A DNA stretch of 64,000 bases. It comes from Sisyra terminalis (taxonomy: Eukaryota > Arthropoda > Insecta > Neuroptera > Sisyridae). A model generated the notes under the pieces. The model was not told the DNA's origin. It was given only the letters and a program-made list of their open reading frames with translations, and ran no database searches. Position 1 is the first letter of the stretch. Each line of letters starts with the position of its first letter. The stretch lies in contig OY292278.1 of assembly GCA_958496175.1 (NCBI GenBank), positions 31,744,001 to 31,808,000 on the forward strand, read 5' to 3'. Shown piece after piece: positions 3,752 through 61,945 of this stretch. Both the position numbers and the translations under genes were made by a program.

Positions 3752-6700
3752 CTAAAAATAAAAAATTTAAATCGTTTTTAAGTAGGTAACTGTTCCTACT
3801 TGTAACTGTTTAGTCGTCGTTGAACGATTATTTGGGAGATTTTGCCAAAAAAACGCCAATCGTTTTATCAAATTTATAGATCTTGCATCCGTTTCATAAG
3901 AGATAGGTACTGATTCATGTTTGGATGGTCAATTTTTAGTTTCAATTTCTTATAGAATAACATGCGACACTTAAAAATAAATCTATGGAATTATTTGGTT
4001 CTAATAATTAACTAAGTCGCGTTGATTGTTTCGATAATTTTGTTTAATTTAGAGCATGAATTGCTAATCTTTTTGTATCATAACAACAACAAATGTAGAA
4101 AATATAAAAAATCTTTGAATAATATAATTTTCCTCTATTTTGATGTCAAATTTAAGAAAACCTAGGAAAGTAGTTTTTATGCATTTTCCATTTAAATCTG
4201 ATGTTTTGCATAGTTATCTGTACAAGTCCACTTTGATATGGTTTTTTGTTAAAAAAATGGATACATCGAACAAGTTTTGCAGTTAAGTTCTCAACTATGC
4301 ATAACATACATGATTATTCCTAGAAGAAATAATTATGTTTTGGTTAGGGTGAAAATCGGTATATCTGTATGTATTTAAAAAACCCAAAATAAGCATTTCC
4401 TGGAAATAGCTAAAATGTTATTGAAGAAATTTTTGTGAAATCGATAAGAATATTACTCATTTATCAGAAATGTATCAGACGACAAAATTTTTTGCAATAA
4501 AAGCAATGAAATTTTTTTGTAGTTATTTTTAACAAATTCCAAAAGTGTAATATTAACTTGATGGCCGTTTTTTTAAGTAAATTTAAAATTGACGTAGGTA
4601 AGTAAGCAGTTCTAGATCTGACTAAGTATTTTCGAGAAACGTCTATTCTTAACGAGATTGTTTATCATTATTGAATATTTTCCAATCTTTTTTGGAAAAT
4701 ATCTTATCATTCAGGTAGTTCCGAGAAACGTCTGTAATCGGATTTTAATGATTAAATTTAAATTAATATTATTGATATTTATATTCAAAATTTTAACTAA
4801 TCTTCACCTGGTTTTTGTGGATAAAACGTTTAAAAAATCGAAGAAAAACATCTTGATAAATAAAAGAAAATTAATGGAATTGTTACTTAATGATTTTAAA
4901 TTATCTCTAAAAAAATATTTGAACAGTCACTGAGTTACAAAGAAATGAAGTTTTTCATTCTAAGAAGTTATCAAGAAGAGATGAAACGGGCAATATTTTT
5001 GGTACTCCCATAGATCAGGCCGATCAGGCACAGTGGATCAGAATCATTTTGGCTAAATTTATTCACGAAAATTCGATCAAAGTCCAGCGAATACAAAATC
5101 GGTTCATGCCCCGTTTAGTTCATAGCCCCCTATCAACCCTCAATCAATCTGGTAACGTTGTATTTTCTAATTTGTTTTTACTTTAACTCACGAATAAATT
5201 GGGCTAAAAAGGCTCTGATCCACGAGAATACAAAATTTTATGATCTTTTTTCCTCTTTATTTTAAATTGTCAAATAATGAAAGCAAATATACAAGAGATA
5301 CCTAAATTTCGGACGTTTTTATTGAATGTAAACCTATTGTTGCAAGATTGGCAGTTGCAGTTCGAACTGTAAATATTTGAATAAATAACTATTACATTTA
5401 TGAAGTTATACTGGGTATAATTGACAAAAAAGAAATTATTGTTAAAAATTATATGTTTTACTTAAGACATATACAAAAAAAATGCTCCCTAAATGTTCCA
5501 ATAAAATCCGTAATTGTTTCAGGTCTGCGCCAATTAGTAATTGAGAAATTTTAATTTTAAAAAGTTGATTGTGAAAAAATATATACTGTTCTATAATGAA
5601 AAATATTCTTTTTCGATAAAAGTTTTTGTACTCAAAACATAACTACAGAGAATCCATAAATGCTACCGGTCGCTAATAATTTGTTACTGAAAAATTTAGT
5701 ATACCTGGAGCAAATACGTGCTCTGCTGGAAGCAATTTTTATGGAACAATTTTTTGACAAATAGAACTTCCGATAATTGGATATTTTTCATTTCATATCG
5801 ATATTTTTTTTCATCTTATTTTATATTTAAGAAATCTAAATTTCTCAGGAACTAATTTGTCTTAGACCTGGAACTATTACGGGTTGTTGAAGTTTAAGGT
5901 AGCAATTTTTTTGCACATATGTACATATAATTAACAAAATGAAAACTTCCACCCTAACTTTTTTCGGTGAATCTGGTTATTGTGTACTGTCTATAGTATA
6001 AACTTTCAATAGTAGAAAATTAAATGGTTTACTTTTTAGTTCGCGGATTTTCCGATTAAAGCGATGTTTTTAGTTTCAAACCAAGAATTATAGAGAATTT
6101 ATTGTAACTGAAATATTTATTGTAATAGTAATTATGATACTATAGTAATTATAGTAAAACTTCAATTTAATTGATCAATGTTTAAACCTAAATTTTCTTA
6201 TGATATGTCGTAAGTTATTTTTGACTAAGATACCGTCGATGAAACTAAGCAGTATAGCATATTATTTTAGTGAGTATTTGCTTAAATTATTCGGGTTTGT
6301 TCCTAAAGGTTGAAATTATTATGTAAAGTATAATTAAAATGTCTTACCGTTCCATTTAAAGTTATTTGCATATCCAAGCATTCCAATCAATCGATACTTA
6401 AAATCAAATGCCAACTGATTGCATTCCGGAATTAAATTATGCAATCGTTTTTGCACAAATTCGCAAATTTCCTCACAATCTCCTCGTTCCAACATACCAA
6501 CTAAACTTCCCATGACGCTCTGTATCATTCCAATTTGTTTTGGTGATATTTCAGTAAAACACAAACTACATTTCCATTTAGAATCAATCTTCAGTGGTGA
6601 TTTCGGCAATAAAATTCCTTCACACCCAGTTGCCCGTTTTGTGCAATATAGTCCACTAAGGTTGGTTCCAAATTCCGTAGGATCTACACATCGCGGGCAA

Positions 6701-7542
6701 CAGCACCAAAAATGTTTTGTTTTGTAAAGATTGTGACGCCGTGCTATGGTACCCCAAATTAAATTTGTGTAGGTCGTGGTAAGTTCCTCGTCTTTAGTGA
6801 TAGGTTTTGTGGTCTTTATGATCATTTGATTGTTTGAGTTGAACACGTGTGTGGTACTTGGAATGCAAGAATGGTTCATGAGGGCACCCAGTGGAAATAA
6901 TCCTCGTAAACTGTAATTTGTTTCATCATTTGTTTTGATTAGAATTTCAAAAGCATTTGTGTCGAGAACTCGACAAACTCGTTCCATGAATTCTTTTTGT
7001 TCTGGGTTTGGTTCTAAATTTAACTCCTCTAATAACTTTAGTTCAAAGCCATGCTGAGGACCTTTGTTGCACTGAAGTATGTTGATCAGGTCTCTTTCAT
7101 CATTTGAAACCGTAAGCCCATTTAGACATGAAACACACCGAAGTAGTTCCATTGACCAATTGTTGAATCCTTCGAAGTTATTTTTCCGCATCCATTCGTT
7201 TATGATTGAACAAAGTTTTAAGTGCTGAACACAATTTTCACAGTTTTCTGAACAAATAGGAAGACCACATTTGGCACTACAAACCCGTAATGGGCGGGAA
7301 ATTTGGTTTGAATAACAAACAACGCAGCCAGGAACTACATTAGAGGCAGCTCGGGGTCCTTGAATTATTGCTGTATCTATCGCCACAACGGTTCCATTTT
7401 CCAAGTCTTTTTTCGCAAATAATCCACGACCACCAAATTTGGAGTCTGCAATGTACCAGTTATGTTCCAAGACACTATTAGCGTTGCTTTTTTCCACCAA
7501 ATATTGTTTTAATAAATTTTCTGTTACTTGATTAATCGACAT
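3591..7542 (-). CDS. SET and MYND domain protein, SmydA-like (3'-incomplete)
   Basis: Two coding exons were joined by eye: 7542-6348 (398 codons plus one base) and 3751-3591. The junction is G|GTAAGAC to TTTTTAG|AT and keeps the frame, giving 452 residues. The order is N-terminal SET part (about residues 29-62, with GGRGLFAKKDLENG), MYND-like zinc cluster (Cys73, Cys76, Cys88, Cys92, Cys97, His107, Cys111), SET core with NHSC at 223-226 and TYTN at 257-260, then post-SET cysteines (280, 282, 285). Exon 2 carries the helical C-terminal repeat region. This layout is that of the arthropod SmydA/msta group, assumed to be nuclear or cytosolic protein-lysine methyltransferases; activity and substrate are inference. 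The second exon ends in phase 0 at a GTAAGT donor, so at least one more exon is needed and none was recognised down to base 1. The start ATG at 7542 begins a good N-terminus. Confidence 0.85.
3752..6347 (-). other. SmydA-like intron 1
   Basis: A 2.6 kb intron. It contains a degraded MITE arm at about 5143-5215 (TAACGTTGTATTTTC, then a poly-T/AATT stretch). No second gene was recognised on either strand; the open frame at 4658-4933 is low-complexity, Ile/Leu/Lys-rich and resembles no family. Confidence 0.6.
6348..7542 (-). CDS. SmydA-like gene, coding exon 1
   Basis: This exon of 1195 bp holds the whole SET-MYND-SET-post-SET catalytic unit. The donor reads AACG|GTAAGAC. Without splicing the frame would stop a few codons later, after GKTF, so the apparent 402-residue reading frame is an artefact of reading into the intron. 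Confidence 0.85.
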
Positions 7543-7730
7543 TGTTACTTTTTCTATAAGAATATTTTTATAGAAGTAATTGTTAATCGGATGTTCGATT
7601 TTAAAATAACGCGTAAAAATTGACTATTTCCTGTTAGGTTCCGTTGGTGTTTAAGTATAAACGTAGATATAAATCACCACTTGGCGTTGCACGTATATTT
7701 CGATCTCGTTACCGATGACGATAACGCTAT
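7543..7730 (-). promoter_or_regulatory. Probable 5' leader/promoter of SmydA-like gene
   Basis: This stretch lies directly upstream of the ATG at 7542 and is less AT-rich than its surroundings around 7630-7720, with several CpG pairs. No TATA box at a sensible distance was seen. The assignment rests on position only. Confidence 0.3.
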
Positions 7731-8701: not shown

Positions 8702-9115
8702 GTCTACTGGTGGCCGAGTGGTTAAGGTGGCCCCTCCAAAGCTGATAGGTGCTGGGTTCAAACCTCGTATCAAACAAATTTTGGCTCAGTGTATTTTAGC
8801 ACACCCACAATCTGGCAACGTTGCATTTTCGACTTTGCTTTTAATTTAATTCGCGATGTTTTTGTTAACTCAATTCTAATACGGTATAATTCTCTCTTTT
8901 GTAGCTAAATTTTCATTATGGACCGATTTAATCGCGAATTGAATTAAAAACAAAGTCGAAAATGCAACGTTGCCAGATTGTGGGGGTGCTACAGTACACT
9001 TGAGCCAAAATTTTCAGTACTTCTCGAATTAAGATTTGTCATTAACCCTTGCGTCGTTAAAAATCTTGGCAGTTGTAAAGCGACAATGAACAATAACAAT
9101 AACAACAAAACAACT
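8702..9115 (+). repeat. tRNA-derived SINE interrupted by a MITE
   Basis: Head at 8705-8774 with box A (TGGCCGAGTGGTTAAGG) and box B (GGTTCAAACCTCG); body resumes at 9007 (CATTAACCCTTGCGTCGTTAAAAATCTTGG ... AAAGCGACAATGAACAATAACAATAACAAC). The MITE sits between the two parts, with CAAATTTT/AAAATTTT as probable target duplication. The head resembles class II (Ser/Leu-like) tRNA. Confidence 0.8.
8783..9006. mobile_element. Palindromic MITE (family 1), copy A
   Basis: Long inverted repeats: GGCTCAGTGTATTTTAGCAC and CCACAATCTGGCAACGTTGC, mirrored at 8941-9006. The two arms of about 90 bp are nearly identical and include TTTAATTTAATTCGCG. Inserted in a SINE, with 7 of 8 bases matching in the flanking duplication. 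Confidence 0.85.
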
Positions 9116-11189: not shown

Positions 11190-11658
11190 ATGCCTACTTG
11201 TACTTTCCAAGTTAAAACAAGCGAAGAACGCTTCTACATTGTTAAACAAAAGCTATCGCAAAATTCAAACATAATGATTTTGAATGAAAAATATCGTTGT
11301 ATTTGGTACATTTTGGACAATTCACATCGACTTTTGCTTGGCATTTGTTTGTATCTTTTCGGTTTAATTGGTGTGTTGTTAAATGTTTGGTTGGCAAGTG
11401 CTTTTTTACAAAGTCCATTGTTGAACTCATCGCGCAGTTATTTGTTATTGTTGAATTTATGCATTTCGTGTTTGGGACGAACAATTTTGGCTGGTTTTCC
11501 ATTTGCTGGGACGTCGGCTTTGGTGGGTCGATGGGTCTTTGGCGACGCTTGTTGTCAACTGTTTGGGTTTTTGAAGCAAATGTTGGGTGTTTTTCAAATG
11601 TTTGCATTGGCTTTAATTGCGTTTGAAAGGTATTTGGTAACGCGAAGAAAAACCAAAG
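11190..11658 (+). CDS. Gluopsin-type gene, exon 1
   Basis: Encodes residues 1-156 plus one base: a 45-residue N-terminus without a clear signal peptide, helices 1-3 and the ERY motif. The frame is open upstream to 11103 but has no earlier ATG. The donor is AAAG|GTGCGT, somewhat weak but confirmed by the in-frame join to exon 2 (ACC AAA G|GG AAT). Confidence 0.8.
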
Positions 11659-13641
11659 GTGCGTACCTAATAAAATTCACATATTTTCTTCTTCTTTTTT
11701 AATGAATTTTTGATAAATTTTAGGGAATCAACTATCGTTTACATTTTATATTTGTGGAATGATCTTTTGTTGGATTGTCTCAGTAATTGCAGCTGTGCCA
11801 CCTTTATTCCATTATGGAGATTATCGATGTGGCGTCACAGGAATAGCGTGCGATTTGGATTGGCGAATGAAAAATCGAACACAAATTGTATTCAATTCCC
11901 TGGTTTTAGTTTTCGCGGGAATTATTCCAATTCTTATTACGTAAGATTTAATAAGTGATGCAACTTGAGTACAATTTTTTTAATTCGAATATAGTTTAGC
12001 ACACCCACAATCTGGCAACGTTGCATTTTCGACTTTGTTTTTAATTTAATTCGCGATATTTTTGTTAATTCAATTTTAATATGGTATAATGCTCTCTTTT
12101 GTGGCTAAATTTTCATTATGGACCGATATAATCGCGAATTAAATTAAAAACAAAGTCAAAAATGCAACTTTGCCAGATTGTGGGTGTGCTAAAGTACACA
12201 TGAGGCATATTTTTAATTCGAGTATAGTTTATTCAAGTTTTACTCGAACTTAACTTGCATCACTCCATAGGTTGAATAGCACATTTATTTGTAAATTCTA
12301 GGTGATTTTTTTTAGACTTTTCTGTTTATGGAGAGCAAATAGTCCAAAAAATTGTGAAATAAAGTCATATTCTCAAAGGGCTTTAACTAAGGTAAATATA
12401 AAAAAAATCAATAATGGTAAAAATTATTTCTACTAAATTTTTACAGACTGTGACCATTGTTACGTCGGGAATATTTTTACTATGGGTACCTCAAGGATTT
12501 GAAATTTTGTGGATTGTATCAGGATTGGGATGGGCTCCCCGCATTTTTCCATTGTCGCTCGCAATCTTGAGTCCTCTTTGCACGGAAGTATGTTTAACTT
12601 TTTTTCAAAAAATAAAAAAAAAATCTCTTATTTCTCTTATTAATCTTTTCTTATTTTTGTTAAATTATTATTTATTTAAAATGAATATCTTCCAACGGAT
12701 GTTTATATTTAACAAAAACAAGAGAAAACTTAGTTTTCCTAAAATCGGATACTCTATAGATACTTATGGATCTGTTGGATTATTCTGCAAGAAATTTTGG
12801 TATTCAAAACTTCATATCGATTTTGTAGAAAAAAGGGATCTTAAATCTTTCATAATGAATTCTTTCATATGAATGAAATTTGGAAGTTATTGTTTCCCAT
12901 TTAATCATATTACTTTATGATTATACATATATGTTCAATATACAGTATCCCCAACAATTTGAAAGACTCAAATTTTCGAAAAGAAGGAATTAAGATATTC
13001 TCGATTTTCTTTCAACCATCAATTAAAGCAATAAACTATGACCGAATAAACTATGATCAGAAATAATTGATCTATAGTAAAACCTGTTCACAGTTAACAA
13101 TGACACAATAACTCAAAAATGGCAACAATTGTCAATTGAATGAAATCAACAGTATCTATACTTCGTGTCGACAGAAATTGAAATGGCAGTTGCAACAAAT
13201 AACAACAATCAGCTAATTTGAAACAATGGTTAATATATTTGATTTAACTTTTACATTTGTGTTATTATATTCTTTGTTTTCTGTCTTTCCCATCTTTTAC
13301 ATATCTATTATATTCATTTGCCTATTGTTGATATTTCTTCGAAAAATCAAAAATTGTTCTTCAGTAGCAATAGGCAAATATTCAACTTCTTGAGTATCCT
13401 TTGTAGATTTGGCTAAAAAACATTTTGGTCAATTAAGGAAGGGCTCAATTACATTTTCTTTGATGTTAAACAATTTATATTTTCTTGGGGAAAAAATTAA
13501 GAAAAATTATACTGTTTTCAGATTGTTTCCCTGATTCCAGTGTTGACATATTTGGCTTACGATGAACGTATCCGAGCAGCCCTTTTAAACATGCTTAAAT
13601 CATTTAAAAGATCTCCACCCCCTCGCACATTGATTCGTTAA
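11190..13641 (+). CDS. Opsin-like GPCR without retinal lysine (gluopsin-type)
   Basis: Five exons (11190-11658, 11724-11940, 12316-12391, 12447-12587, 13522-13641) join in frame into 340 residues with seven helices. Opsin features seen: helix 1 Asn65; helix 3 Cys122 and ERY 146-148; helix 4 Trp173 with PPLF; loop-2 Cys199 in an ACDLDW motif; helix 5 Pro225; helix 6 LWVPQ (Trp267, Pro269); helix 8 start YLAYDERIR. At the Schiff-base lysine site (bovine 296) the residue is Glu301, and NPxxY reads PVLTY. A glutamate here plus a derived NPxxY defines the published gluopsin clade, close to RGR-opsins and retinochromes. Covalent retinal binding is therefore unlikely. The ligand, G protein and tissue are unknown. 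The gene is not obviously broken: no frameshift or stop was found, and every splice site is GT-AG. Confidence 0.85.
11724..11940 (+). CDS. Gluopsin-type gene, exon 2
   Basis: Encodes residues 157-228 and part of 229: helix 4, extracellular loop 2 and most of helix 5. Acceptor ATTTTAG|GGAATC, donor TTAC|GTAAGA. The loop-2 cysteine Cys199 can pair with Cys122. The bovine Glu181 counterion position is Gly193. Confidence 0.85.
11996..12205. mobile_element. Palindromic MITE (family 1), copy B, in gluopsin intron 2
   Basis: TTTAGCACACCCACAATCTGGCAACG at the left is mirrored by the right arm ending TGTGGGTGTGCTAAAGTACACATGAGGC. It shares almost its whole length with copy A. It lies between opsin exons 2 and 3 and appears nested within another small inverted repeat (GTGATGCAACTT at 11955, AACTTGCATCAC at about 12251). 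Confidence 0.85.
12316..12391 (+). CDS. Gluopsin-type gene, exon 3 (short)
   Basis: A 76-bp exon for the end of helix 5 and the third intracellular loop (LFCLWRANSPKNCEIKSY, then SQRALTK). Acceptor TTTTTTTAG, donor AAG|GTAAAT. It completes the split Thr229 codon and ends in phase 0, which links exons 2 and 4 without a frame change. Confidence 0.75.
12447..12587 (+). CDS. Gluopsin-type gene, exon 4
   Basis: Exactly 47 codons covering helix 6 (LWVPQ in place of CWxPY) and the first part of helix 7, ending ...SPLCTE. Acceptor TTTTTACAG, donor GAA|GTATGT. The last codon is the glutamate at the Schiff-base position, so the lysine site sits at the exon edge. Confidence 0.85.
13085..13330. repeat. 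AT-rich dispersed repeat (family 3), copy 1
   Basis: Core GGCAACAATTGTCAATTGAATGAAAT ... CAGTTGCAACAAATAACAACAATCAG, then TTCTTTGTTTTCTGTCTTTC. Similar cores occur at 16680-16870, 30700-30890 and 36300-36460. Located in gluopsin intron 4. Confidence 0.55.
13522..13641 (+). CDS. Gluopsin-type gene, exon 5 with stop
   Basis: 39 codons plus TAA. It begins IVSLIPVLTYLAYDERIR and ends in a short basic tail (KRSPPPRTLIR). Acceptor TGTTTTCAG. An AATAAA follows about 10 bases after the stop, with another near 13785. Confidence 0.85.
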   Translation: MVSLIPVLTYLAYDERIRAALLNMLKSFKRSPPPRTLIR

Positions 13642-15415
13642 GGTATTGAAAAATAAAACTCCAAAAAAATCTTATCATTTCAATTCAATTTTAATATTTA
13701 ATTATTTTATTCTCATTACTTATAATATTAAACATAAAATTAATTATTTAAACATTTCTAATGTTTGTATATTTTATAATATCAAGAATAAAAGTTTTCC
13801 AAGATTTTACTTTCAGACGTTTTTTTTAAACTAATTTTTATTTACAATTAATGATTTCAAAGTATTACTACAGAAGTCAACGTTTTTGATTTATTATTGA
13901 TATTGATTCTTTATTTCTATATTATTTTTGTGCAAGAAGGTATTTAAATGGCAGAGAGAATAGTAAAAAGGGTTTTTTTATACAAACTTTACATAATATA
14001 TACAGTAAGGAAAATAAATCGAATTACAATAGATTTTTGGTCAGTCAAATTATTTTGTTTAGTTTTAAAAAATGACTTGGTATAGTTGTATGAATATATT
14101 ACTATCTTGTCATTTAATAAGTCATGTTTACTGTTTTCTCGTTCATAATTCGGCGGAAACAGTCAAGTATAATCACATCTGAACATTTGTTTTTACAGAT
14201 AACACTATATTGTGATGTTATCTGGTAGCATTGTTTTGGTGCCACTGATTTGATTAAAACATATTGCTCCATTTTTTAGTTGAGTTTTAAAAAGCGTTAG
14301 CTTTAAGCACTTTGCAGTTATATATATTTTTTAATTTGTGGCACTTAACCGTTAATATAGTATGGTTGAATTAGAAATATTTACATTAAGAGCTTTTGTG
14401 TGATGTAAGATATGTTTGAGATAGTAGCGACTTTAGAGTTAAGGTTTGAAATGCTTTATTTATACGTTTATTGAACCTAAAGTAGGTTCGTGTCACTTCT
14501 TAATTGATTTAGATTTCTACATAGATGCAAACTCTTTGATAGTTTGAGTACCACTGCATTGTTATTAAGTATATATAATTGTATTAGTAACACTGAATAT
14601 TTCCAATAAATTATTGTGATCTACTTCACATTTTAAGCAAATATTTATTCAGTTGGTTATTACTATCGACCGTTTATAGAAGATTTATAGTTAGAAAAGT
14701 TCTTATAGTTTAATCAACATTTTTGTGTTTTTTTTTTTCAAACCTCAACATGTCTAGAGCCGCTTCTTTTTCAACATATAAGTATAATTTCAGCATTAGT
14801 TTACAGCTTAATAAAAACTGTATTACAATAGTGATTTATTTATAAATCTTTACTAGTAAATAGTATAATATGCTGAAATATACCCATAGTAAACTCTCCC
14901 ACTATAAAAATATATTACTTGACATGCGCGAGATTTAGAGAAAACCTTTTATAAAATTAAAGCTTATGGAAGAATAATGACGCTTTATTATGAGCTTTAT
15001 GATAGATATAATTTTTATAGTGCGAGAGTAATAAAAACTTAATAAAATAAAAAGGCACACATTAGTTTTCAAACGTAACCAAAATTAAATTAAATATAAT
15101 TTATTATCACATTTATCATTTAAATATATACAATATATAAGTATATTTAACTTGTTTACTTATCCACAAAAATTAAAACAAAATAAAAAAGAAGTACAAT
15201 CACGATTACAAGGCATTTGTTTTGGTTTCGCTTTTTAATGCAATTGGTAGCATTAATCTTCAACTGTTATAATTATAAATATAAAAAAACAACTAAAAAT
15301 AACCTGCGATGTTAAAGTAGTATATTTAGTTTTTAACATTTAAGGTTGCTTAAAGTTGTTTTTCCTATAGTCACATTTAAATAAAACTAAAAAAATAAGG
15401 GTTGAAAAATGCGCG
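13642..15415. other. Convergent intergenic spacer between opsin-like and SLC16 genes
   Basis: 1.8 kb of very AT-rich DNA holding the 3' UTRs of both genes. AATAAA on the plus strand follows the opsin stop; on the minus strand the complement TTTATT at about 15100 could end the transporter transcript. The small open frame at 13646-13834 is low-complexity and not believed. Confidence 0.55.
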
Positions 15416-15579: not shown

Positions 15580-18500
15580 CTATAACAAATAAATATTTTA
15601 GTAAATAAATATTATGGTATACTAAACACAATACCTATAGCAAATCAATACAAGAGTATCATCTGTAATAGTTTATCAATCTAGGGAATACGATTAAGGG
15701 ATAAGTTGAATATGTGAGTGGAATGATTGAATCGAACAAATGAGTTAATTGAGTGATTTGAAAGTTAATGTTTCGAGTAAATAAGTCGAGTGAGTGAATA
15801 AATTATATGAGTTAAATGTTGTTAATGTTTATTTTTTATATATATTTATTCTTGAATTGCATCTAAGCCATGTGCTTTTCTTGCCTTATCCTAGCTACAC
15901 CATTGGGCTTATAAATAAAGCGACCCATTAGGCCGAAATTCAAATTTTTTTAGGTGTAGATATTATACTAAGTAACCTGTAAAACTCTTTTATTCAGCTT
16001 CATGACGTTAATATTGCTACAACCTCATCATTAAGGACAATTAAGGATCATAATGCTTTTGCATAAAGTACTACTAAAAACTATTCAACTAAAACGCACC
16101 TTAAGAAGCTGAAATTCTCGTTGAAAAATATTATCGAATTTAATTCCAAAAGATTCTTAATTTATTTTAAAATAATTTTTAAATAATGAGCAAATGTTAA
16201 CGAATTTGTTAACGAAGAAATAGGACATAAAAGATTGTTAATTCGATAGTTATTTTAAACTTTTAAATGGAAATCAAATTAATAATAAAACCCTTTTTCG
16301 GTAACATCGCGTGTTAGGTAATATCGCAATACATATTAACATATATCTTGATGAGACATTAAAATTTATAACAAAGAATTTTTTATCATTGAAAGGAAGT
16401 TATTGAAACATTATACTAAAGAATAAATAATGGCAAAAAGTATAGAAACGAGAAACAATGCGTAGCATCGTAGAATAGAAACAAAGCAAGTATGAATTTA
16501 ATGTGATTCAAAAGATTGTATGATCATTTCATAGAACAAAACATGTCAGAACAGAATACAACAGAAAAGTTTCATTTCAAATTTATTTCGCTAAACAATT
16601 AGAAAAAAATACAGTGAGTATTTGTATTAACATTTTAAGGAAATAATGAGATAAAATATTTGTATTCTTTTATAATTTAACTCGTAACTACCCGTGAAAT
16701 ATTCATAACAAAAACTCACACAATTGCTAAACGGCAAAATTGGAAATTGAATGATATATGATATTGAAATGACCGTTGAAACAAATGATAATAATCAGTT
16801 AACTCAAATTTGAAATAGTGATAATTGGATTTGGTTTTCACTCATGCATACATATGTGTTAAAATACATTTTGGTTCTTTGATTATGCTATCATACATAC
16901 ATAATATATACATTAATAATGAATAATATATAATTTGACTAAAATCAAATTGAGCTTTTTTTCCTGATCTTATTTAATAAAGTAATTGATTAAAGACTCA
17001 TTAATTTTGAGAAATAATATTAAAATCGTCGCGATTTTTCATATGTATTCACTTGTTTTTTAACTTATAGATGGGTTTTCCAGGATGAGGTTAATTAAAC
17101 AACCTCAGCATTGTAGCCTCTGGGCTTATTGGGATTCTAACATATAGATTCTTTATATTTGTAATACAATTATTGACGATGACATCTACATCTTTCCAAT
17201 CGAAAAACTATTCAAATTACAAATTGATTAACAAATTTCAGAAATTTTGTCACGTAGCTTAACTTTCCTAACTTTTCCCTTGACCCAATGAAATTCCCTG
17301 ACATGCCCGGATTTTTCAAGTTTCTCTCATCGCTGGACGGTTTTCTGTTGCAGTTTGAGCAATGAATGTAAAGAAAAGTAGTCTCCCTAAAAGAATTTAA
17401 GAGTAGTTACTTGAAATGATTTGACCATATTTCTTTAATCATTTCGACAGTCTAAAGTTTTATAGAGGAAAATCATTGAAATGGATAGAAGGTTCAATGT
17501 CGTAGTGTGCGATTTCGCGACCCCGGACTAACCGGAAATTTGCCGCCCCCTATTTTGATGATTAGATAGTCAAGAAAATTTGTAAAAAGTCGAATATCTT
17601 TAAACTCTTTAGTTACTTAAAACTGTAATCTTTGTTCTATCCTCAAAATGAAATCTATTCTGGAATTATCAATGCCAATAAGTCGCCTCCGTTTCATGTG
17701 CCGCCCGGGGCCATGGCCCACTCGATACCAACTACGCTACGTTACTGAACAGGTTAACACTTTAGGCCGACGATTTCCTTAAAATTTCAATATAAATACT
17801 TAGTGTATTCTTTTCCCAACTTGTCGCAAAAATAAATGCTTTTTTTTGTCATGTTCTGTTCTGACATTGTTCTACTCTGACCTTTGTTTTTTTTCTGTTA
17901 TGTCTGACTACGGATATAACATATAACTCTTAGATGAATAGAAATGGCACGATTGTATTGATTATCTATATGTAGTTACTAGTCAGTCATTTAAGGAAGT
18001 ATATTATTTGTAAAAATTTTGTGTAGATTGATTATACAACATACTTGTTAATCAATCACTATTGGATCTAGGTATTAATTTCGATTAACTATAATATCCT
18101 TACCAGCTATTGGTGGTCCAATTAATGACGCGATTCCTTGAAACAGAAGTAAAAGTCCAAAAGCGTTTGTCAATTTATCGAGACCCAGTAAATCGACTAA
18201 TATTACGGATGTAAGGCCAACGTAAGCTCCGATTGTAAAACCGAAAACCACGGCGTAGATCGACAACGAGTAAAAGTCATAACAAAAAACGCTGAGAAAA
18301 GTAGCTGAAAAAGAAAAGACAGAAATATAAGACAATATCAACTTGAAGAAAAATTTGTTTCCCGAAAGTATAAGTAGGTGTTAAGCAATAATACGTGACA
18401 AACCAAAGTAAGCTAATTCTATACGCATTAAAAAGCGCTGTTAGCCAACTAATGGTACAGTGGTCTTAAGCACTGCTCTATAGACCAGAAGGTCTGGGTT

Positions 18501-21500
18501 CTAACCCCGCAATTTACAGGAAATTTTTATTTCCAGAATTGTGGCTAAAGGAACCCAAAAATTCGTTAAAGATTATTGCATTTAGGAGGCATTCATTAAT
18601 TACGTGTGATAATTTTGGCTATTTTTCGACCCCCTTCCCTCGTCTAAGGAGTTTAGATCCAAATTTTTTAAAAAGCGTAAGTATTTGCTATGTAAATGAC
18701 TAAATCTGTGCTTCGATTACATTAAATTTATTTAAAAAAACAATTTTCTTATATTTTTTTTATTTAAGCCTAGTTAAGACTAGTAATTAAGATTTTTAAT
18801 GTCGTAGCATAGAGTCACAATGAGAAAATAAAATAATAAAGTACTTAAATAGGAACTATTATAATTCGTAAAAGAATATTCACTCTAATTAAATCCACGG
18901 AGACCTATGTGTGATCTCACGAGTGATTACTGGAACCAACATGTTCATGTTGTTTTCAGTAACCGTAATGATAAAAGTAAACCGCAATGATTATTATATA
19001 TGATTTAGCCATATTTTAGTGAAGAAACATTTATTACTTAAATTAACACAGTTTTCTCGCAATTTTACACAGCTTTTTGCGGAAATTTAAGTGATATTTG
19101 CCGAGATCACCTTTCCCGAGATTGAGTGAGATTTTCCTCGATTATCCCCCCTCCCCCAATCGTCTCACGTAATTTATGGATGCCCCTTTATAGAGCATAT
19201 TTATAAATAACCTTAAGAAAAAAGAAATGGTTTGGTTTACTGTTTTTATATTCAAAAATTGTTCTTATCTTGTATAACTCTCGTAAACTGCAGTTCGTCT
19301 GTAAAACTTCACAAGGATATCATTTTTTACTAAGAAAGAGAAATCTACCTTTTATACTGATACTAAACGGTAATTTTTATATTATTTAAAAGTATAAAAA
19401 TGAAAATTAATGAAAGAGAGATAAATTTTGTTATATATCGAAGTATGATCCAATAAAGTAGGCAAGTTAATTAATTATATATGGAGTAACATGATATAAT
19501 GATGTCCTTAGAGGGATATTAAATAACTAGATAACAAAATCGTATATTCAGGATTATATTGAGTAACAAATTTAAATTACGTTAGTCGTAGACATTTGAT
19601 GTGAAAATCGATAGAAAAACTTACCAATGCCACAAATTGTCAAGCACGTGTTATAAACACAAAGTCGATTGACCCAAGGTTTATCAGCTAGGTATCCGAG
19701 AATGATTCGCCCAATCGTATTGGCGATTCCAATGATCGAAAGTAAGTAACTAGAGTCGGTGCTACTGATTCCCATTTGAGTTGCTTGCGCGACTATATAT
19801 ACATACGGTATATTAAAGCCGATACTTGTGCAAAAGTTCGATATTGTAAAAAGTATAAAAATCGGATCAGCAAACAGTGAAAAATCGAGCATTTCGTGAA
19901 GTGTCTCTTTGGCATCGGCTGAGCAGCAGAAGCAGGACGTGAGCGTGGCGTCGCCGAACCGCTCCTCGTCCAGTTCTTCGGGTGGTTCCAGGTGGTTGAC
20001 GTGGTGATGCGAGGCATGGTGACGATGGCCTGAATGTGATAAACGGCGCGACATCAAATGCATCTCTTCCTGTATAGTGAGGTCATGCTTCGAGCGAAAT
20101 TGCGGAATGTTCATTAGGCTACCTTGATAGAAGACATCGCGACGCTGCATAGGACCAGCCGTCCGTTTCGGCGCTGCCTCATTGCTGTAATACGTTTCCG
20201 AAACGAGCATCGGTTGACTAAGAGTCATGCGACTTATGTCGGGTGATTTCATTTTACCGTTGGTTATCGTGGTACTACCACCATTCTGTCCGACACCTGC
20301 AATACCCGTTGACGATGTTTTCGTCACACGTGGCATCGTAAAATGACCGATACTATGTGGCCGCGTAATCGAAGTCTGATAGTTTCCATTACCGTTTCCA
20401 TTCGTTATAATCACAGCCGGAACTTGGAAATCCCGCAAATTATGCGCCGACACATGAATATCCGTTTTCGCGTTCGACTCCTTCAGTGGTAAACCAACAT
20501 TTTGTTTCGCATCGCACGACAAAATGTCGGTCATCTCGTGCACGCTGCTTGTCTCGTTTTCATATTTCAATGGTCTAAAAAGTGCGCCGAAAATGATACA
20601 GTTTAGCATTATGGCCCCGGTGATTAGCATTGCTCCGCGCCATCCGTACTCGTCGTTCAAATATTCGATAAGCGGTGCGAACAGAAACGTTCCCAAACCT
20701 GATCCGCACACGGCAATCCCCGTCGCCAGCGATCGATACTTTTCGAAATACATTGTCACGCTAACGATAGCCGGCAAATAGATCAGGCCGAAACCTATTC
20801 CCGTACCAAGCCCGATGGTAAAGTACAATGTAGTCACATTTGGTGCCAGAACGCTTATCATTAAACATACCGACGACAAAATCGCACCAGCAATCGTAAC
20901 CACACGACATCCATATTTGTTAACGAAAGAACTCGCTATTGGTCCTGCAAAAGAAAAAAAATACAATTAAATTACTTCAATAGGAATTGCATTAAAGTAA
21001 AATATGATAGTCTTACAATATATCTGATAAAGAAACTATTGCTAACTCTCTTTTTGCAAAGAATGAACAGTTTAAGGATAAAATCAGGTCCAAGTATATG
21101 TTGAATTTTGAATAAATCGATTTTGGATTCTAGTGTCCGACCGAAACTGGTTTATAGCCGAAACCGAAACCAAATTTTGGAACCAGTCTCAGTTTCGACC
21201 GAAACCGAAACTTCCATATAAGGTCAAGTTAATCATAATTGGTCAGTCTTTACTTTTAAATTCCATAGATATTCATTAATCATTTAGTCCTTAATATTTG
21301 AGCTAATCATTAACATAACATATTATTAACACTTCTTATTTCAAATAAATTATTTATGCTGAAATAGGGGGTTGATTTGAAAGAAATGCACCTAAAATAT
21401 TTCTTTTTAATATTAGTTACGAATAACATAAAATAATAAAAAAAAGTTGCAAAACAAAATTATTTTTTACATAATATGTTTAGGTAAACAAAATAGAAAG

Positions 21501-30500: not shown

Positions 30501-33500
30501 AAAGTTAAGAATTAGAAATTACGAAAAGAGCAACTTTTATGATATTAGATTTGAATTAGCAAAAAAATCGCGAATTAAACTAAAAACAAAGAAGAAAATG
30601 GAACATTACTAGATATTGATATCGCTAAAAGGAACATGAGTCACCAATTTAATTTATTATTTGAAAACTATTAACTTTCTGGGTCACTTTCATAGCCCAA
30701 CATTGTCAAAACTGACAAATGGCAATAATTGGAAACTGAATGAAAACAAAATGATAGTTGAAACCAATGACAACAATCAGTTAGTTGAAAATTGAGAGAA
30801 TAATTATTATATCTGTATTACACTCACATGTGTTTGCATTCTTTGTTCTCTGTCTTTGTCGCCATAGATACATTTGCCTGTTATATTGACATTAAAAGTG
30901 AAAATTGTGTTCAAAATTTTATTATATTTTAGTTATCACAAACTACTAATTACAGATGAACTATTTCAGGCACTACCGGAATATACTATGGCAGTGGATT
31001 ATTTTTTTTTTAAATTACGATATATGATAAAATCAAAAATTATTCAAGATATTAGTTATAAAATTAACAATAAAGTTATGAAATAATTTTAAGTGAGTTT
31101 ATCAAATGGAAAAGTGACTTTTCACTCTTTTGTATAATGTAGGCACCTACATATACCTATATTAAATCTGGGAGACCTTGTGTGAAGCCTACGTCTTTTC
31201 GCGTTAACAATATAACTATATATCATAACACTTGTAATACTTTCACGTAGACAATTAAGAACTGAGAAATTGCAAGGGTAATTATTTTGAAAGTATTTTT
31301 TTCTTAATGTGCTTTTTGGTCCACATATGTGAGTTATAGTTTATAATCAAGGCTACCATTTCTTTCATTCAATTTGTTGATCATTATATTGCGTTGATGC
31401 AATTTCAGATGCATTTCGAAACGTTTTTATGATATGCATTATTTAAAACAAAATCACTGCTATTGCTGCGATGCCAAAGAAATTATTTCTCTATATTTAT
31501 AATGCAGCGCAATAATTAATTTAATGAATTTTTCGTTTGTTTTCTTAAGTGGGCGAATTGAGTGTAATAAACTTGCATGTTCATAATACGTCTCAATAAA
31601 AATAAATACATGTACAGATATAATTTATTTTAAAGTTGCAAAAAAATTACCTTTTGTTACACAGATTTTGAAATTGAAATGAGAATTGAAAATGTACATT
31701 GAGTTAATTAATAATGTAATCAGTTATAATTAATGTTGGCGATATGATTGCAATAACTCTAAACTAATACTGAAACCAATTAGATTGATAAAGTGCAATA
31801 ATGTAGAGGGAAAAAATATATTTGTGGATTATTGAGAAAGTTTGTGCTCATTGAAATCGTTTTTTTTTAATAAACAAGTGAACTCGTGCGATATCTTTTT
31901 TTCTACTACAGTGAGCTCTGGCTAATTTTAACGTCTTTGAGTCTAAATTCTGAATAACTTAACTACTTTGCTGTCTTGGAATTTCCATTAACAGAAAAAA
32001 ACAAGTAAAAATAGCTTATGTAATAAGAATTTTAGGATAAATCAAATTTCTTAACAGTGTACTGGTGGCCGAGTGGTCAAGGATGCTGCTCCAAAATTGG
32101 TAGGCGTTGTATTGAATAAATTTTCGATATTTCTCGATTTACGGGCTTTTATTAACTCTAGAGCCACAAAAGACAGTAGTTATAAAGATACAGTAAATAA
32201 CAATAAAAAAGAAATTGTAATGGTCGTTTTAGTTGGAATTCATTAAATATGTTCTTACTCAATTTAATATTGTTTTACTTTGTTCAATCTATAGAGTAAT
32301 TGATTGTAGTCACTACTATATAGACGACAATTCAATTTAACAATAATGTTTTTTTTTACTTTGAAATTTATAAACCAACAATAGACTTAATGTACATGAT
32401 TTAAAAGCAATTTTAAATGTTTTAAAAATATTATAAACTAATATAAAAACATAATATAGCTGTTTTTAGTTAGAAATTACGATGTTATTATTGTAATATC
32501 ATGCGTGTATTATTTAATACATCCAAGCCTCGTATAACACGGTTATATTGTTCCACAAATATTTCGTGTAATACAAATCCGTGTTAAACAAGTTTTGAAG
32601 TTCATTCAAAATTAGGGTTTGCGTTCCAAAAAACAAATCGAAGATAGTTTATATCAATATTTACTTTATTTTTTTAATAAAAATTTATGAATTTACATTA
32701 TTGAAAAAAAAAACTGTAATAACACATATAATTTTTCTAATTATAATCTTGTATTTTATATATGGATATTGATATATGTATAGTCATCTTTATTACTCTT
32801 TTTTGTATAGTCTTCCCTTTTTTCTTCTTTTTTAATATGTTCATATTAAGTTTATTAATGTAAAAAGCCCTATATAAATAAATAAATATAATCATCATCG
32901 CTATCACTTCGAATAATTCTTAATTTATACTCTTTTTTGACATTGGTTATGAGCTTTCATCATCAGAGAAAGACTCTGCATTTCTTGTGGTTTTAGCCTT
33001 CGAAAAATCGGTAAAAAGGGATTATCTGGTTTTAGCGTATAAATCTGTACGTATTTCCTTATAAGGTTCCAAAATCTGTTATAATTCCCTCTAGAATTAT
33101 TAACTTCTTTCCATCATAGGATCCTTTTCCATAAAAATAATCTATTTGTTTTTCTAAAACTGTGTTATAAAAACATGTTGTACAAATTTATGTTACAATT
33201 TATTCATCCATGTTATATAAAACCGTGTTATACGAGACCCGAGTATATATAAAACTTCTAAATAGGATACCTCAGAAACCACAGAAAGTTAAACGAAAAG
33301 ATCAAGTAAGATACAAATAATTATTTCTTTTATATTTTTTTAAGAATTTTTTAAATTTTCATTTGTTTATTTTTGTACAACACGTTTCATCGGTTTCCCA
33401 ACTTCTTCAGGTACTAATATAAGTACTTGAACGACCGAGTTCAACTCGGATTGAAATTCCATTCAAATATGTTTTGGCTATGTGGAAGTATTAGATATAC

Positions 33501-55269: not shown

Positions 55270-58200
55270 TTATAATTTTTATTTATAATTTTTGAATCAG
55301 ATATAAATATATCTCTAACAAAATTTATTACAACTCTTAAGTCTAAAACTAAAAAAAAAAAAAAAAAAAAACTAGAGTAATTAGTCCTCCCTACACCTTT
55401 GTGTAGAATTGGATGTGGAAGGTGGGTCCATCATTGGCCTCGACTATTGATTTCAAATTTACTCCATTAGGTTCAGTGGATCATTTCGCTTGAGTCTCGT
55501 GAAACGTTTGGCTTTTAAGATCTTCCTGGCTGATTGGTTCGGGTGTGAGTCAAGTCTTTTCTTGTAGGTTTTACTAATTTTCAAAGTGACTTCTTTGACT
55601 GTTTCAGTGTCGGTATCTCTAAGTATTATAGAATTTCGCACGTACTTAGGAGCGCCAATGATGGCTCTAATAATTTTCGATTGGCAGCGGTCTATTATTT
55701 GTAAATTTGAATTTTTAGCGGAACCCCAAAGTTGAACTCCGTACGTCCATATAGGTTTTATTATAGATTTGTATATGATGATTTTTGTTTCTAATTTTAA
55801 TTTTGATTTTTTTCCAATGAGCCAATATAGTTTTTTAAATATTATATTCATTTGTTCCTTTTTCTTCGAGATGTGTTCACGCCAGGTTAATTTTTGGTCA
55901 AGATGCATTCCCAGATATTTGACCGAGCTGCTTTGTGGTATGGATTTGTCGTTGATTGTGATCCTTGGACTTGTGATTTTTCTTAGGGTAAACGTGACTT
56001 GGATTGATTTTTCATCATTGAGTTTAATTCCCCATTGGTCACACCATTTAGTTATGACATTTACATGTTCCTGTAGACGACGCTTTATAATGTTTACGGA
56101 AATTTTTTGGGGACTCCATAAATAGTGAAGGTAACATTTTTTGTAATTAAATTTTGAATTGTAAGAAGTAAGAAATCCTTATGAAAATTATTAAAAAAAA
56201 AAAAACAAATTTAAATAATTGCACTATCCTGCTGCAGACCCCGATACCCTAATTGGAGTCCAAATTCACAGGTTCAGAAACTCTGACGTATTTTAGTAGT
56301 TTATCACCACTCCATAATCTAGTGTTCAAAGCACATAATATGTACCCATTTTTTTAATATTTTGTAACAAAAATATTAATGTACTTGAAACTGATTTGGT
56401 TTTGAGGGCTTTAAGTATTCGATTAAATCATTTATGAATTCGATATTGCGGAATTCTATGGTGAAAAATGTACAGAAAATTTAAGATGACATCTCAATTA
56501 ATCCATTGTTGAATTTGAAACTTTATTATTTCAGACAAACCGTCAGAGTAATAAGAAACCCTTGATGTCCAAACTTAATAGTAGACACCAAAACAATATT
56601 TTATGCCTTCGGTTCTGGTTTTAAGTACTTTAATACTTATTGCCATTTTTGGAGGTTGAATTATGTTTCATTATTAAAAATATTAAGATGTAAGTATATA
56701 GGTTTATTACATTTCTAATTAATGGCATCAAGTGGAGTTACGAGGTTTCTCTATGACGCCAACAAAATGAACAAAGCAAAATTGAGATTGTTAATTTCTT
56801 CTTAATCGTGCTTTAAGGTCTTTTTACTGATTAAATTTTATAAATTTACAACAGTAAATACCCTGTAAGTTTTAATTTATTTGAAAGAACCTAAATCAAG
56901 CAAAATAAATGCGTCATAAATGACTGCAATTTTTGGTTACGTTAACTTAGAACCTTGGTTTCTTTTCAACTATTTATCATATCCCTAACTATTTGATATT
57001 AAAGTTATATTGGTACTTCCCATGGGAAAAATAGAATTTTTTCCATTAGAATTTTTTTTGCCTGATTTACAGATAATAAAGTGATCCTATAAGGCAGAAA
57101 TCCTCAACCTTTTTCCATCCAAATGTACATCCTAGAATGCCGGTCGTGTGGTGTGCACTATTTAGTTTTTCAAAAGTATAATAGATTTTGCACAAAAAAT
57201 ATTTAGTTCTAAAAATAAAGTTATAAAACATAAAAACTTTGGTAATTGGGGCTAATTGGGAGAAGTTACTAGAAAAATTACTAGAGGTACTTCTGCATGA
57301 ACTACATCTAAAGTATGTTAGAATATTTCAAGGAGGGAAATTATAACGGTGTAATTATTTTCGCTTATATTTTTCGGTTTAATTACTAAATTTTTATTTT
57401 TTTTTCATTAAATTTTATTGTTAATTTGTCGATAGGCACCATGGTGCCCGTGAACATAGGGTTGGGGACCACTGCTATAAGGTTTGTTTTTTTTTGAAGT
57501 ACAAAACCTGCGTTCATACAATATGTAAAATATATTGTAGTTCTATTTATGTAAAATAATTTACCAAATTATATTAGACGTATTGCTCAGGTACGTATTT
57601 CGATTGTCAAGTAATCTTTCCCAGTGATCATTAAGTAGTAATGAAGTAGTATGCACAATAAATTGAGATCAATCCGTGATTAATTTGTGAATCATCACAT
57701 AGCAGTTACGGAGTGATCCAAAACTACTTGCTGACCACTGAGGAAGATCCTTTGGCAATCGAAATACCTACTTAGACAATACAATACAAATATTTTTGTT
57801 TGAACTTTTGTTCAAATATGTTTCTTATTTGCTTTGGTAAATTATATTACACAAATAGGACTACAATATATTTTACAAATTGTATAAACAGTATAACTGT
57901 TCAAAGTTAGCGAAAAAATTTAATTTGAGTAAATATTGTGTACATTATTGTACACATAACTAACTTGGGACAACTGAAATATTTTTTTTTTATAAAAAAT
58001 ATTGAATTAAGTATTGTTTATTCTCATTATTTGTTTATAAAATTGTAATGTCTTATTTGTATGATTTAGGTGTAGATATAGTTAGTAAAGCACCTAATCA
58101 AACTTACAAACTTGTGACGTTACACCAAAACAGTGGGGACCAAACTGCGGCCCGCGGGCCGCAAGAGGCCCAACTTGACCATTTTTCACGCTCACGAGAT

Positions 58201-60121: not shown

Positions 60122-61945
60122 CAGGGGTGGACTGGCATAATTGTGGCCGTAATTTAGAAATAGTGCTTTTTAACTAGCACTTAATTTTAGACAATTTTCC
60201 AAGCAACAATAGGTCTAACAGTTCGTTAAATATAACAAATCTTTTAAACTCAATTTTTCCAAATTGGCAAGTAATCCAAAAATTCTACTGTTATTTTTTT
60301 TGTCATTGGAACCATTTTTTTTTCTTTTAGAAAAAAAGAATAAGTGATGTCAGTGTGGTTCATGCATACTTTAGCGACGTCAAAATCAGGCAATGTTGCA
60401 TTTTCTACATGGTTTTAGTTTAATTCGCGATTATGATACTCTAATCTTGTATTGCTTTGTTTTCTATTGCTAAATTATCATTATGGCCCGATTTATTCGC
60501 GAATTAAATTAAAAACAAAATGGAAAATGCAACATTGCCGGATATTGAAGTCGCTATAATATACCAACCGTTAGTGTTTTGCAATTTACCGATGAGTTGT
60601 ACCAATAAAACATAGAGTATCAGGAGAATAGTTAATCGAAGATAACGTATTGTGATCTTCACTGTATTGGCTTTGTTATTTCTTCTTTATTAATCCAGAA
60701 ACGGGAATTAATTAATCGAGAATCGACCAAATGACCAGTGTATCGTAGATTTGATTCGTATTTTTGAGATTTTCTCCTCACAAAACTATAGATAGTTCAT
60801 ATTCCAGAAGTCCATTTTCTTTTATTTCTGGGTTATCTATTACACATATCAATTAAAAGATAAATGGTTGCACGTGCGTACTGGTATACTGTCGTGATAA
60901 CCAGATGCAAAATCAATCCAAACAAAAATTAAAACGCAATCTGGTCGACATTTTCTTATTTGAAATCAAAGCAGGAACCAGTAATTCCTTAGAGAAATTG
61001 TAAGCTTAGGAAGACTCTGTCTTGTGCAGGACAAAGCTATAATACTTAAAATGCTTACAACAGTGATGCGAAATTCATAGCAGTAAATGTGAATTATCCC
61101 ACAATCCCTTATATATATTAAACTCGGAACCTTTTGGCTGTAATGTAAATAACAATCTTTTGAAAGTAAAACCAAAAATTTGAATATTTTGACTCAAATT
61201 TTCTTGAATTTTGAGTAAATCATAAAAAAATTTAATTCGCTATTTCATTTATCCTCCTTGCAAATCGGATATAAAACGTTCTACCATAAAAATATTACAA
61301 AAACAATGAGTTCTGTAAAAAGTAACTATAAATAGATTATAGTTCTACACACGGACACGATGTAAGAAGTCGACCATTGTCTTTTATCAGGTTCCCAAAA
61401 GATCCACTGCTCCCCGAATGGAGCTTAATTAGATAATCTCGGATAGACCAATGATTTTTATGGTACTATGAATATTCGAAAGAACTGGACGAAATGTAAA
61501 TCATAAAAATTCTTCAGTTATATTAATTTTTTGACCTTTATGATGATGGCGCAAAGTGAAAGACTGATCTGTTTTCGAATATATTTGATTAAAATCAGGA
61601 TACTCCAATCGGGTTCCAACTACACACTATAGTTCTGCCCACATAGTTTAATTTCCTATTATTTTCAATTGCTTGAAATTATAACATTTTTTTTAAAATG
61701 AATTTTTATTGAAACAAGGGTGGGAGGGGTCGCCAATTAATCTAATAACTTATACCGACCATACATGGTTCATGTTATGAATACTACTTTTAAGGACAAA
61801 GGGTTTATTTATTCACTCCTTCATTTTTTTTTCTGCGAAATATTAATATAATGGGTCGGAGATATTTTACAAATAATTTATTTTGAACTGACAGCACACT
61901 AAAATAACTGGAGTATAGCCACGTTATCTTTTCAGTCCACCCCTG
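60122..61945. mobile_element. 1.8-kb hAT-like element CAGGGGTGGACTG...CAGTCCACCCCTG
   Basis: Perfect 13-bp terminal inverted repeats at 60122-60134 and 61933-61945, flanked by GTTGAGAG and ATTAAGAG (6 of 8). No transposase frame remains. It contains MITE family 1 copy C. It is the largest DNA element in the window. Confidence 0.75.
60357..60572. mobile_element. Palindromic MITE (family 1), copy C
   Basis: GGTTCATGCATACTTTAGCGACGTC, AGGCAATGTTGCATTTTC and TTTAATTCGCGA on the left, mirrored by TCGCGAATTAAATTAAAAAC, AAAATGCAACATTGCC and GTCGCTATAATATACC on the right. Older than copies A and B. It lies inside the larger hAT-like element 60122-61945. Confidence 0.8.

Follow-up and report, generated by a model that had tools for sequence, protein, structure and literature searches.

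A gluopsin gene of Sisyra terminalis with glutamate at position 7.43 and lysine at position 3.32

The sequence analysed was a 64,000-nucleotide stretch (the window) of the neuropteran Sisyra terminalis (GenBank assembly GCA_958496175.1, contig OY292278.1, positions 31,744,001 to 31,808,000, forward strand). On sequence evidence the gene at 11190-13641 of the window is an intact insect gluopsin gene, a member of a family already described. Splicing of its five exons (Table 1) gave a 1023-base reading frame encoding 340 residues plus a stop codon; all four introns were GT-AG, with phases 1, 2, 0 and 0. The in-frame exons, disulphide cysteines, ERY triplet and ACDLDW loop described in the first-pass annotation were reproduced by scripted splicing, with ERY starting at residue 146, ACDLDW at residue 198 and the glutamate at residue 301. 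A gluopsin profile, whose underlying alignment contained the spliced window protein itself, was run against the 2051 six-frame open reading frames of at least 20 residues in the window and recovered all five exon frames (E = 6e-58, 3e-28, 1e-10, 7e-9 and 0.009 for exons 1 to 5). Beyond the gene no frame scored better than E = 0.47 and none of 19 relatives had a tblastn match, so that no tandem paralogue was detected in the window. The first aligned cysteine is preceded by 7-13 residues in 19 relatives; in the window protein it is preceded by 36 residues from the ATG at 11190 and by 8 from an in-frame ATG at 11274. By this comparison a start at Met29 (ATG 11274), yielding a 312-residue protein, fits better, and translation more likely begins there than at ATG 11190.

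Table 1. Positions of the gluopsin gene and its diagnostic codons in the window (TM, transmembrane helix)
Feature	Positions	Strand	Remarks
Exon 1	11190..11658	+	N-terminus, TM1-TM3; C122 = 3.25, K129 = 3.32, ERY 146-148
Lys129 codon (3.32, bovine A117)	11574..11576	+	Position derived from the residue number and the exon start
Exon 2	11724..11940	+	TM4, extracellular loop 2 with C199 = 187, start of TM5
Gly193 codon (position 181)	11831..11833	+	Position derived from the residue number and the exon starts
Exon 3	12316..12391	+	End of TM5, intracellular loop 3
Exon 4	12447..12587	+	TM6 with W267 = 6.48, first part of TM7
Glu301 codon GAA (7.43, bovine K296)	12585-12587	+	Final codon of exon 4
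Exon 5	13522..13641	+	Remaining TM7 with PVLTY 307-311, helix 8 with R319 = 314, C-terminus, stop
Stop codon	13639-13641	+	
AATAAA, possible polyadenylation signal	13652-13657	+	Read from the letters

Of 18 proteins found by a database search, the 15 ranked highest were insect gluopsins 33-39% identical to the window protein (one termite, two Lepidoptera and twelve Odonata). Among the matches listed, a profile search added proteins of Ostrinia, Anabrus and Schistocerca as well as a planthopper fragment without TM7; the 15 database matches and the three profile matches were used as the comparison set of 18 full-length relatives. All named relatives came from insects. The first-pass annotation had placed the family mainly in dragonflies and butterflies, which follows the wording of the available text of the founding paper (Guhmann et al. 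2022, PMC9368030) and is too narrow, given the termite, katydid, locust and planthopper relatives found; the same text also mentions gluopsins in planthoppers, whiteflies, termites, a jewel beetle and scorpionflies.

The marks of an opsin in the wide sense were present: a rhodopsin-type class A fold (Pfam PF00001, 74.5 bits), the disulphide pair C122/C199, ERY, and W267 at 6.48. Rhodopsins headed the solved chains ranked by profile and were also the structures nearest to a predicted model of one relative (P0020, not the window protein); a 22-row alignment gave a good fold for this model, and the poor single-sequence fold (predicted local distance difference test, pLDDT, 47.2) was not used. As far as the available text of PMC9368030 defines them, gluopsins are marked by Glu296, by a motif PVxxY or PLxxY, and by P292 and R314, two residues of chromopsins; the window protein has E301, PVLTY at 307-311, P297 (= 292) and R319 (= 314). 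An opsin tree of 24 sequences was built from the window protein, 12 of the 18 full-length relatives and 11 other receptors, including two non-opsins (amine or peptide receptors); three sequences among the 11 were entered by hand and two were stretches. The branch parting the window protein and the 12 gluopsins from the other 11 had support of 100/100, while support was weak inside the gluopsin clade and for the placing of RGR, retinochrome and peropsin. The protein search and tree proposed as a check in the first-pass annotation thus put the protein within the gluopsin clade and apart from the two non-opsins sampled, and on its identity homology, diagnostic residues, tree and published definition all agree.

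The first-pass annotation also held that Glu301 occupies the retinal-lysine position. Profile alignment to bovine and squid rhodopsin, alignments to the relatives and a mixed set all placed E301 at 7.43, so that the window protein falls outside the strict definition of an opsin, under which the residue at 7.43 is the lysine that forms the Schiff base with retinal. Glutamate stood at this position in all 19 TM7-containing gluopsins compared (18 of 18 full-length relatives plus the window protein), and a sequencing slip is therefore not a credible cause. The possibility that a different terminal exon, lying between 12588 and 13521, brings in a lysine was considered and ruled out: with its codon the last of exon 4, Glu301 is unaffected by the choice of exon 5, and none of 15 phase-0 candidate terminal exons (at least 12 residues before a stop) had K ten residues ahead of Y.

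What is new is Lys129 at position 3.32, on the helix expected to face Glu301. In class A receptors, position 3.32 has been said to vary together with 7.43. It was occupied by arginine in 14 of the 18 full-length relatives as against none of 24 other receptors, many of those being fragments, and among 19 full-length gluopsins lysine was found in the window protein alone, the others having Arg, Asn or Gln. At position 181 aspartate was present in 18 of 18 full-length relatives and glycine (Gly193) solely in the window protein. Within TM limits that were estimated, Lys129 was the only transmembrane lysine besides K254 at the cytosolic end of TM6. The window protein has Gln at the Tyr268 position and Phe at position 113. 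In the main text of PMC9368030, the supplementary alignment lying outside this count, the terms '3.32', 'salt bridge' and 'counterion' do not occur, and the 3.32/7.43 charge pair in gluopsins was not met in open-licence literature, which was searched without naming the pair in gluopsins.

Our preferred reading, which is tentative and given slightly under even chances, is that a TM3-TM7 ion pair between Lys129 and Glu301 serves as the lock in place of the Schiff base with its counterion, and that the protein is a receptor which is not a photopigment at 7.43. Glu301 and Lys129 would form a buried ion pair in which the charges are exchanged between the helices, giving a lock with no need for a chromophore, and a small ligand held non-covalently in the former retinal pocket would act by breaking it. 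The altered NPxxY motif (PVLTY) suggests weak or unusual G-protein coupling. Two points weigh against this reading: the 3.32/7.43 pair is not universal within the gluopsin clade, and the arginines at 3.32 come mostly from one order. A swapped charge pair would explain specifically why glutamate is there and could be tested experimentally through just two residues. Gluopsins form a broad insect family whose function is called unknown in the available text of the founding paper (PMC9368030), and the pocket residue pair makes that functional question testable.

The main rival, possible but doubtful, is that the protein handles retinoids without signalling, holding retinal or retinol non-covalently in eye support cells for chromophore recycling, as retinochrome and RGR do. 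The derived NPxxY common to RGR-opsins and retinochromes would fit, as would the sparse expression of dragonfly gluopsins in visual organs (both from the available text of PMC9368030). Without a lysine at 7.43, however, the known photoisomerase chemistry is lost. Pointing towards retinoid handling is the butterfly opsin UnRh, which is reported to have no such lysine and, according to the part of PMC6698658 available, occurs abundantly in the cone and pigment cells, but the peptide used for its antibody matched none of three lepidopteran gluopsins (at most 4 of 13 residues); UnRh may thus be a separate paralogue whose expression is not simply transferable, and carrying the Heliconius UnRh data over to gluopsin was judged unsafe. 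In Adelpha heads the expression of a lepidopteran gene called RGR-like is low, which also counts against retinoid handling; an unclassified opsin is expressed there at an intermediate level (available portion of PMC11802900). Expression of the scorpionfly relatives, named peropsins, is given as weak in the corresponding portion of PMC6026179.

It is unlikely that retinal is instead bound at Lys129 in TM3 with Glu301 as counterion, making the protein a photopigment with the charges of its site swapped. The same low probability is given to the version in which Schiff base and counterion changed helices, starting from a gluopsin ancestor whose ion pair was Arg3.32-Glu7.43. The near-absence of other transmembrane lysines favours such a site, as does the lining of the retinal chain by 3.32 in rhodopsin. 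The loss of the otherwise constant Asp at 181 solely in the window protein (G193) gives the impression of a readjusted charge balance. According to the available text of PMC9368030 the lysine that binds retinal in cattle rhodopsin can be shifted to other sites, including ones on different helices, and different gluopsins may have moved theirs. Arginine, found at 3.32 in 14 of the 18 relatives, is incapable of forming a Schiff base, so the change from R to K may be neutral; moreover, the lysine occurs in one sequence only, with Gln at Tyr268 and Phe at 113. The statement of the first-pass annotation that the protein cannot bind retinal covalently accordingly holds for position 7.43 and is too strong overall, Lys129 lying at a pocket position. 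Should retinal indeed be attached to the lysine of this copy, the protein would exemplify a retinal site relocated in nature.

That the gene is decaying or unused is very improbable. G193 does deviate at a site invariant across 18 relatives, and a hairpin repeat lies within intron 2. Against these, the frame is open, the four introns are GT-AG and coding G+C is 0.377 as compared with 0.260 in the introns. The window protein retains 44 of the 45 residues that do not vary among the 18 other full-length gluopsins, which argues against a pseudogene; leave-one-out counts for the other gluopsins ranged from 44/44 to 44/50. The earlier description of the gene as intact is borne out by the open frame after splicing and these retained residues. 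The terminal branch of the window protein in the opsin tree (0.73) appears ordinary beside those of Anabrus (0.60), Cryptotermes (0.66) and Schistocerca (1.04). Least probable of all is a non-opsin class A receptor merely resembling opsins, which the missing K296 might suggest and against which stand the 100/100 grouping with gluopsins, apart from the only non-opsins sampled, and the rhodopsins at the head of the profile list of solved chains.

Two of the relatives were themselves unusual. The Schistocerca gluopsin (P0021) has lost six otherwise invariant residues, including W6.48, where it has His, and no other gluopsin in the tree has so long a terminal branch; judged from its sequence this locust gluopsin may be relaxing. 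The gluopsin-like planthopper protein (P0022, Laodelphax), which is 233 residues long and lacks TM7, shows Asp at 3.32 beside Lys at 3.33 and may be either an incomplete gene model or a real truncation.

Intron 2 of the gluopsin gene holds at 11992-12196 a hairpin element with 66-base arms that are 95% complementary, and related copies lie at about 8776-9014 (92%, better strand), 60360-60543, 30524-30614 and 1682-1743; by its form the element is MITE-like (miniature inverted-repeat transposable element). Elsewhere, a long minus-strand reading frame at 6334-7623 carries a SET domain and looks SMYD-like. Minus-strand exons of a monocarboxylate-type MFS transporter were found at 18075-20966, the part at 18075-18380 scoring below the Pfam cut-off and that at 19572-20966 above it. 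In the trimmed alignment the transporter stood at 62% and 61% to its two nearest proteins and 59% to Tribolium. Its named matches were insects, save one oyster record (P0048), and the top-scoring match (stick insect) probably owes part of its score to a segment that recurs within its own record. A tree was made from exon 19572-20966 with 47 hand-chosen matches of the 120 listed, P0048 (29% covered) being left out. It joined the window's transporter to P0066 at 98.1/89 and gave only 46.9/60 when P0046, P0047 and P0056 were added; that group and the beetles were parted from all others at 94.3/74, and the beetles, together with further proteins, excluded it at 96/99. The transporter thus falls close to the sampled beetles yet outside them, with support that is at best moderate, and by this tree an origin in Neuropterida or another relative of the beetles would be a guess. 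At 55459-56178 on the minus strand a weak reverse transcriptase similarity (RVT_1, E = 1e-5, below the Pfam cut-off) is probably a retroelement remnant. No RNA families above the gathering score and no tRNAs were found in the window.

Compared with known systems, the window protein shares with the gluopsins of PMC9368030 the Glu at 7.43, R314, insect origin and CCQLF in TM3, at 33-41% identity; PVxxY/PLxxY and P292 are each shared with most members, and CxLDW with the Odonata and Anabrus gluopsins. It differs from the others at 3.32, where it has Lys and they have Arg, Asn or Gln, at 181, where it has Gly and they have Asp, and in its long N-terminus if ATG 11190 is used. Odonatan gluopsins have also been called RGR-like, and several insect annotations use the name visual pigment-like receptor peropsin for members of the family. 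The retinochromes of molluscs and annelids resemble the window protein in opsin fold, chromopsin group and altered NPxxY, and differ in retaining K296 and in having Gly at 3.32; squid retinochrome has, like the window protein, Pro at 292. Vertebrate RGR-opsins likewise share the chromopsin group and an altered NPxxY, whereas human RGR-opsin has K296, NAxxY and Gly at 3.32. Retinochromes and RGR-opsins are marked by K296 with VPxxY, YPxxY or NAxxY, in place of which the window protein has E301 and PVLTY. Sea urchin astropsins (Glu at 296) and nemopsins (Arg at 296), known here from the published tree alone (PMC9368030), are like the window protein chromopsins without K296, and form clades separate from the gluopsins in that tree.
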